DNA of 64,000 nt, taken from contig NZ_CP050965.1 of NCBI RefSeq assembly GCF_012273215.1, positions 1,038,541 through 1,102,540 of the forward strand, given 5' to 3'. Within the stretch, counting starts at the first letter, position 1. Each line of letters starts with the position of its first letter. Under the pieces are notes generated by a model. It was given only the letters and a program-made list of their open reading frames with translations, did not search any database and was not told where the DNA came from. This stretch comes from Gemella haemolysans (lineage in GTDB: Bacteria; Bacillota; Bacilli; Staphylococcales; Gemellaceae). This document shows, in pieces, positions 29,689 to 31,050 of the stretch. The position numbers were made by a program, and so were the translations under genes.

Positions 29689-31050
29689 ATGAAATATGTA
29701 GTTGTTGGAACATCTCACTTCGGTTACGAAGCTGTTCAAACTATTTTAAAAAACGAGCCTAATGCTGAAATTCACTTGTACGAAAGAGGCGCAGGGGCTT
29801 CATTTATGGGTTGAGGTAGCCAATCTTATTTAGATGGGACATCTAAAACATTATCTGAACTACACTTTGCTACAGAGGAATCTTACCGTTCTCAAGGTAT
29901 TAACATCCACTGTAACAGCGACGTTGTAGGATTAAACTCAAAAGAGAAATATGTTGTTGTTAAAACACCAGCTGGTGAAGAAAAACAAAGTTACGATAAA
30001 TTATTATTAAGTCCTGGTGGAGCTGCAATTAAACCTCCATTCGAAGGAATTGAATTAGAAAATATCCACACTTTCCGTGGACCAGAAGACACTCAAGCAG
30101 TATACGATTGCATGCAAAACAGTAAAAAAGCTGTTGTTGTAGGTGGTGGATACATCGGTCTTGAAGTTGCAGAATCTTATGCAAAATACGGTATCGATGT
30201 AACAATCGTTGACTTTGCACCAAGAATCTTAAACACATACTTAGACCAAGAACTAACTGACATCCTTACAGAAGAAGGTGCTAAACACAACCTTAAAGTT
30301 CGTGGTGGAGAAAAAGTTCTTTCATTCAAAGGTGAAAATGGAAAAGTTACTTCTGTAGTAACTGATCAAGGTGAATACGAAGCAGATACAGTGATCGTTT
30401 CTGTTGGTGTTCGTCCAGATGCTTCATGGTTAAATGGAGAATTAGAAATGACAGAACGTGGTTTTGTTGTTACTAACGAATACTTAGAAACATCTGCTAA
30501 AGATGTATACGCTGGAGGAGACTCTACTTTACTTCCATACGCTCCAACTCGTGGAGAATTACCAATAGCTCTTGCTACATTAGCTCGTCGTCAAGGTGTT
30601 GTAGCTGCATTAAACGCTATGGGTACTAAAACTAAAATGCCTGCAGTAAACGGTACTTCTGCATTATCATTCTTTGATTACAAATTTGTAAGTACTGGAC
30701 TATCTCAAAACGGTGTAGGTCTATATGACGGTAAAGTAGCTTCTAAATATGTAGAAGAAAGAATCTACCCTGACTTCATGAGAAAAGAAAACAATCTAGT
30801 TCACATGAAAATTTACTATGATGAAGATACTCACAGAGTTCTAGGAGCTCAATTCATGTCTAAACACGACGTTTCTAGTGCTATCGCAGCTTTATCAATA
30901 GCTATCGCATCAGACTGGACATTAGAACAATTAGCACTTGCTGATATATTCTTCCAACCAGAATTTGACCGTCCATGGCACTTTATTAACGTACTTGCTA
31001 TGGCTGCTCTTGACTACAAACTTGGTGGAGCAGATAAATTACTATTTTAG
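29689..31050 (+). CDS. nox: NADH oxidase/peroxidase (flavoprotein, CoADR family) with in-frame TGA at the catalytic Cys codon: candidate selenoprotein
   Basis: 453-residue FAD enzyme reducing O2 or H2O2 with NADH. The start has a TAGGAGGAAA site. The first strand MKYVVVGTSHFGYEAVQ and YERGAGASFMG lead to TGA at 29812-29814, codon 42. The family has its redox Cys (Cys42 of Enterococcus Npx/Nox, in SFLSCGMQLYL) exactly there; here it reads SFMG-TGA-GSQSYL. The frame is then intact to 31050: AVVVGGGYIGLEVAESYAKYG (NADH domain), YAGGDSTLLPY and the dimer domain with PWHFINVLAMAALDY. An 8-bp hairpin follows the TGA. I infer selenocysteine; a nonsense mutation or read error is the alternative. Confidence 0.9.
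29812..29847 (+). promoter_or_regulatory. In-frame TGA and candidate bacterial SECIS hairpin in nox
   Basis: TGA at 29812-29814 is followed by TTTAGATG (29829-29836), loop GGA (29837-29839) and CATCTAAA (29840-29847), a perfect 8-bp stem. The loop begins 23 nt after the TGA and opens with GG. Known bacterial SECIS elements place a loop with an early G about 16-37 nt after UGA. The hairpin is inside the coding frame, as bacterial SECIS elements are. Confidence 0.7.

Follow-up and report, generated by a model that had tools for sequence, protein, structure and literature searches.

An in-frame TGA at the catalytic cysteine codon marks a predicted selenocysteine-containing NADH peroxidase in Gemella haemolysans

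The window analyzed here, a stretch of 64,000 nucleotides from Gemella haemolysans (NZ_CP050965.1, positions 1,038,541 to 1,102,540), contains a gene in which the codon of the catalytic cysteine is a TGA. It was concluded that this gene very probably makes a functional selenocysteine (Sec)-containing enzyme of the NADH peroxidase (Npx) family, hereafter Sec-Npx. A preliminary description of the window had proposed a candidate selenoenzyme, and the conserved TGA, the complete Sec machinery, a codon-conserved hairpin, and the intact catalytic residues all point in this direction. In the proposed mechanism, the TGA would be decoded by SelB and Sec-tRNA-Sec, aided by the hairpin just 3' of it, and a full-length FAD-dependent NADH peroxidase with Sec in place of the catalytic Cys42 would be made. 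The Sec42 selenolate would attack H2O2 to give a selenenic acid, which would be reduced back via FADH2 by NADH, as is the case for the Cys42 thiolate and sulfenic acid in enterococcal Npx.

As stated in the preliminary description, the frame is intact over 453 codons save for a single internal stop, the TGA at codon 42, after which 411 codons follow up to a TAG. By alignment, residue 42 corresponds to Cys42 of Enterococcus faecalis Npx, and the surrounding sequence is SFMG-U-GSQSYLDG, as had been read from the flanks. Its Pfam domains (PF07992 and PF02852) place the encoded protein among the pyridine nucleotide-disulfide oxidoreductases. A protein search covering 40 related genomes returned the gene in nine genomes of the same family, namely its own, seven of the same genus, and one of a sister genus; named records of this kind belong to G. 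haemolysans, G. sanguinis, G. cuniculi, and Gemella sp. GH3. All nine copies had exactly one internal stop, which was always a TGA at codon 42, and the eight others were 76–99% identical to the copy in the window. TGC or TGT at codon 42 was found in none of these orthologs, so the comparison with related strains did not refute the selenoenzyme. Moreover, pairwise dN/dS values 3' of the TGA were 0.03–0.10 with dS of up to 1.85, indicating strong purifying selection. The probability of a random stop at this codon had been estimated at about 1 in 450, and the nine conserved TGA codons together with the low dN/dS go far beyond this figure.

The genes selA, selB, and selD and a tRNA-Sec with anticodon TCA, for which a genome check had been suggested, were all found. 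Each was above its curated cut-off in the G. haemolysans genome and in all eight other Sec-Npx genomes of the family, and in more distantly related genomes of the order (G015–G039) no cut-off was exceeded for any of them. The tRNA-Sec was 93 nt long. The sel locus (G000:C1, about 1478500–1485250) consisted of selD, yedF, a gene for a Se_S_carrier protein (DUF3343), selB, a cysteine-desulfurase-family gene, and selA, and selD itself carried an in-frame TGA. This layout matches the kind of selenium-metabolism gene neighbourhood presented in PMC5322559. A phage-type integrase gene adjoins selD (L154 11384–12487; G000:C1, about 1485400), and the sel locus may adjoin a mobile element. In one relative (G013, 72% complete), selA was present and selB, selD, tRNA-Sec, Sec-Npx, and the second TGA gene described below were not found, which probably reflects incompleteness or decay of the Sec trait.

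The hairpin that had been noted from the 15th nucleotide after the TGA, with 8 bp and a GGA loop, was present at 29829–29847. Its codons (47–53) formed the best window of the gene among the nine orthologs, with 6/7 being codon-invariant and the sole exception lying within the loop; over the whole gene, 52 of 291 (18%) degenerate, amino-acid-invariant codons were also codon-invariant. A bacterial Sec insertion sequence (SECIS) is a hairpin located 16–37 nt after the TGA, with a G among the first loop positions. The Gemella hairpin agrees with this description, having an 8-bp stem, a GGA loop starting 22 nt after the TGA, and conserved codons. In family f51 (five genomes), other codons are used and a different hairpin is formed, (A)TACCT-GGA-AGGTA(T), whose loop is again GGA; in these genes, too, codon conservation peaked within it, at codons 47–50 (4/4 codon-invariant vs 17%).

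Some points weigh against a Sec enzyme. The energy of the hairpin was only marginally better than that of same-peptide codon shuffles (P about 0.04–0.06), and in the enterococcal-type Sec genes described below, no hairpin with the SECIS features was found beyond chance. The AlphaFold2 model of Sec-Npx reached a mean pLDDT of 92 with Cys modelled in place of Sec. Selenium insertion itself is what we infer from these data, as are the substrate and any improvement in rate or over-oxidation resistance.

The gene might instead be a pseudogene or contain a sequencing error, in which a TGC or TGT was mutated or misread as TGA and the downstream part is decaying. TGA is one base away from either codon, and a 312-aa open reading frame begins 3' of it. 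However, the TGA occurs in nine independent genomes, at dS of up to 1.85 and with dN/dS of at most 0.10 after it; because it is kept in all orthologs and the downstream dN/dS is low, it was considered not to be a mutation. The TGA form is also found in further families, always in genomes with selB, and it is shared by Enterococcus raffinosus records that are 94–100% identical to one another across the gene. Thus, a pseudogene or error was refuted by the conservation of the TGA and is hardly conceivable. It is also very improbable that the TGA is read as Trp, Cys, or another standard residue, through near-cognate suppression or a code change. In favour of such a reading, the inserted residue is predicted here only from sequence; against it, codon 42 is the position of the conserved nucleophilic Cys in all homologs, and a dedicated tRNA-Sec and SelB exist in the genomes with the TGA gene. 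In addition, TGA terminates the window gene at 57169–57738, with just 11 open codons behind it, and code reassignment was left without support from TGA usage in the window.

The preliminary description had named the protein an NADH oxidase/peroxidase, of which the peroxidase part is favoured here. His10, Glu14, and Arg303, whose roles in Npx come from work on the enterococcal enzyme, are all present in Sec-Npx; in the aligned oxidase (Nox) sequences, position 303 is Val and position 14 is Ala or Ile. One Sec sequence from another genome (L131) has Ser instead of Arg303. Cys42 was invariant in every Cys sequence of the alignment, and besides residue 42, no Cys was conserved across the Sec sequences, leaving a single redox residue. 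The Cys42-sulfenic acid chemistry of Npx is described in PMC1847454. The best structural match of the model was Npx (TM 0.95), followed by water-forming oxidases (0.94); as these values are so close, the fold alone poorly separates peroxidase from oxidase. Membership among the water-forming NADH oxidases was rejected, as the NF046103 score was 357 bits against a cut-off of 600 and Arg303 and Glu14 were present. Membership among the CoA-disulfide reductases was rejected as well, with scores below the curated cut-offs of TIGR03385 (300 vs 579 bits) and NF007123 (283 vs 458 bits).

The active-site residues thus point to an NADH peroxidase and not to an oxidase. The exact substrate is less certain than the family identity, with H2O2 being the likely one. 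It is unlikely that the Sec enzyme, though real, mainly serves a purpose other than H2O2 reduction, for example as an NADH oxidase or in reducing CoA disulfide, a persulfide, or a selenium compound. Such enzymes belong to the same superfamily, the best NCBIfam matches are to water-forming NADH oxidase and CoA-disulfide reductase, though all under cut-off, and a second selenium-linked gene lies close by. However, the Npx clade keeps Arg303 and Glu14 where Nox has Val and Ala or Ile, and the top match in both sequence and fold is Npx.

Among known systems, Npx of E. faecalis 10C1 (PDB 1npx, 1joa) resembles the Gemella enzyme in its fold (TM 0.95), its 42% identity over the model, its single redox residue 42, and His10, Glu14, and Arg303; it differs in having Cys42 preceded by SFLS, whereas the Gemella enzyme has Sec42 preceded by SFMG. 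The G. haemolysans genome also encodes an ordinary Cys homolog that is 35% identical to Sec-Npx (G000:C1:1864660). Sec forms of AhpC/TSA-type peroxiredoxins were looked for in Gemella, and none was found.

The kind of enzyme is not wholly new because a Sec family from Geobacter has already been listed. In a 2006 table (PMC1794560), "NADH oxidase" was counted as a selenoprotein family, its single sequence coming from Geobacter metallireducens, and the family is given as "CoA-disulfide reductase, NADH oxidase" in a 2022 list (PMC9312934); one such sequence was found in marine metagenomes (PMC2398784). The Geobacter protein (WP_011365774.1, COG0446) shares with Sec-Npx the superfamily, the Sec residue, and the computational nature of the prediction. 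Compared by its published description, it differs in coming from another phylum and in being listed as a CoA-disulfide reductase/NADH oxidase, not a peroxidase. In the open-access literature, no paper was found on a Sec NADH peroxidase or on selenoproteins of Gemella or Granulicatella. E. faecalis, with an orphan SelD, was the sole SelD-bearing member of the Lactobacillales at the time of PMC1794560.

An active-site DNA pattern matched 18 of 394 Lactobacillales genomes, and in 15 of the matches, a full-length Npx frame had its TGA at codon 42 and the sequence SFMG-U-G. This number is a lower bound because the pattern bars Ser44 encoded as AGC or AGT. selB was present in all 15 genomes and missing from the five Cys-form genomes tested. 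Among 398 thinly drawn genomes of the phylum, the exact SFMG-U-G pattern matched only G043, which was already known; this search is uninformative on Gemella-like codons since the pattern required a pyrimidine as the middle base of codon 44, which is AGC or AGT in Gemella, and the G. haemolysans gene itself was missed. Sec-Npx with SFMG-U-G was also present on E. raffinosus megaplasmids of about 1 Mb (L164 2501–3859, NZ_CP081847.1). The RefSeq protein WP_261321796.1 from such a megaplasmid is one full-length coding sequence spanning the TGA, so the annotation pipeline apparently already reads through. It has the same SFMG-U-G as the Gemella enzyme but carries the generic name "FAD-dependent oxidoreductase" and falls within the enterococcal-type Sec clade, in which identity to the Gemella enzyme is 42–44%.

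The Cys relatives have SFLSC, or SFMSC in Carnobacteriaceae. In the tree, the Sec sequences fell into two clades, both of them embedded within Cys sequences, and a topology test run on the tree without the active-site columns rejected one clade of all Sec sequences (approximately unbiased test, p = 5e-10). Therefore, Cys was probably replaced at least twice. The simplest reading would be two Cys-to-Sec gains, each ending in Met-Gly before Sec through a parallel change from LS to MG; that Sec is ancestral and was lost several times is possible but less parsimonious. According to the title of PDB 1nhr/1nhs, an L40C mutation converts the Npx redox centre to a disulfide. As position 40 is thus near the redox centre, the parallel change may tune the Sec site.

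While TGA usage in the window was being checked, a second candidate surfaced, a MetE-like gene with one in-frame TGA at codon 229 (Table 1). All six orthologs, including the window copy (65–100% identity), have the TGA, and the paralogs with Cys (43%) read SFM-C-AALSE against SFY-U-GALSE here. The motifs HVC, LEFST, and NPDCG, which in MetE hold the zinc ligands, are present. Beyond the TGA, the codons GTC AAG GTT do not vary and contribute to a candidate SECIS hairpin with the same loop spacing as in Sec-Npx. A stand-alone YedF-type gene lies directly upstream, far from the main sel locus. On plasmid pFER4 of Paracoccus ferrooxidans (CP038202.1), the gene of a Cys homolog (L198 9002–10483; RSFM-C-GALSE, 32%) immediately precedes selA. 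Genes for TusA, DsrE, a cysteine desulfurase, and TrxB lie nearby, and this cluster suggests that the MetE-like family is linked to selenium. Two sel-bearing relatives without Sec-Npx (G006 and G014) have the MetE-like TGA gene instead; thus, all 11 selB-positive relatives have one or both TGA genes, and no selB-negative relative has either. The MetE-like selenoprotein was not found in the 2022 list (PMC9312934), although a prior description in Haft & Gwadz 2023 is possible, and a scan of viral contigs for the protein returned nothing. It may represent an undescribed selenoprotein family, and its gene is possibly more novel than Sec-Npx itself. Taking both genes together, we lean towards the view that Npx gained Sec at least twice with the same Met-Gly end state and that the MetE-like protein of Gemella is a selenoprotein from an undescribed family, in which Sec takes the place of a conserved Cys.

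Table 1. Features of the two TGA genes and their surroundings (window coordinates)
Feature	Position	Strand	Basis
Putative -10 box (TATAAT)	29615..29620	+	GTTATAAT aligned upstream of most orthologs; consensus match only
Shine-Dalgarno sequence AGGAGG	29676..29681	+	Sequence; AGGAG present in every ortholog aligned
Predicted Sec-Npx, 453 aa	29689..31050	+	Frame, orthologs, alignment to Npx, residues, fold
TGA predicted to be read as Sec42 (catalytic position)	29812..29814	+	Aligned to Npx Cys42; TGA in 9/9 Gemella-family orthologs
Predicted bacterial SECIS hairpin, 8-bp stem, apical loop GGA	29829..29847	+	TTTAGATG-GGA-CATCTAAA; 14 nt between TGA and stem; loop starts 22 nt after TGA
Intrinsic terminator	31062..31095	+	Sequence; AAGTTCGCAG/CTGCGAACTT and T run
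MetE-like (PF01717) candidate selenoprotein, 403 aa, 4 kb from Sec-Npx	34791..36002	-	In-frame TGA, orthologs, paralogs
Candidate SECIS of MetE-like gene, GTCA-AGGT-TGAC	35286..35297	-	Loop 22 nt after TGA
TGA predicted to be read as Sec229 of MetE-like protein	35316..35318	-	TGA in 6/6 orthologs, Cys in paralogs
DsrE-domain YedF-type selenium metabolism protein	36180..36521	-	TIGR03527, 123.3 bits vs cut-off 110

Upstream of the Sec-Npx gene, no PerR box was found at up to 2 mismatches to a PerR consensus. Elsewhere in the window, Rfam matches comprised an RNase P class B RNA (7617–8008, minus strand) and a purine riboswitch aptamer (51336–51437, minus strand).

Npx is a textbook case of cysteine sulfenic acid catalysis. 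A natural Sec form, which probably evolved at least twice, supplies ready enzyme pairs in which the effect of selenium on rate, on the preference for O2 versus H2O2, and on over-oxidation resistance can be compared. Moreover, annotation under the standard code can split or drop such genes. The present analysis adds Gemella and many relatives in the Lactobacillales to the bacteria with a working Sec-decoding trait; for these, the papers found record only the orphan SelD of E. faecalis. If true, the twice-gained Sec-Npx and the MetE-like selenoprotein would both be new to the described selenoproteomes of Bacilli.
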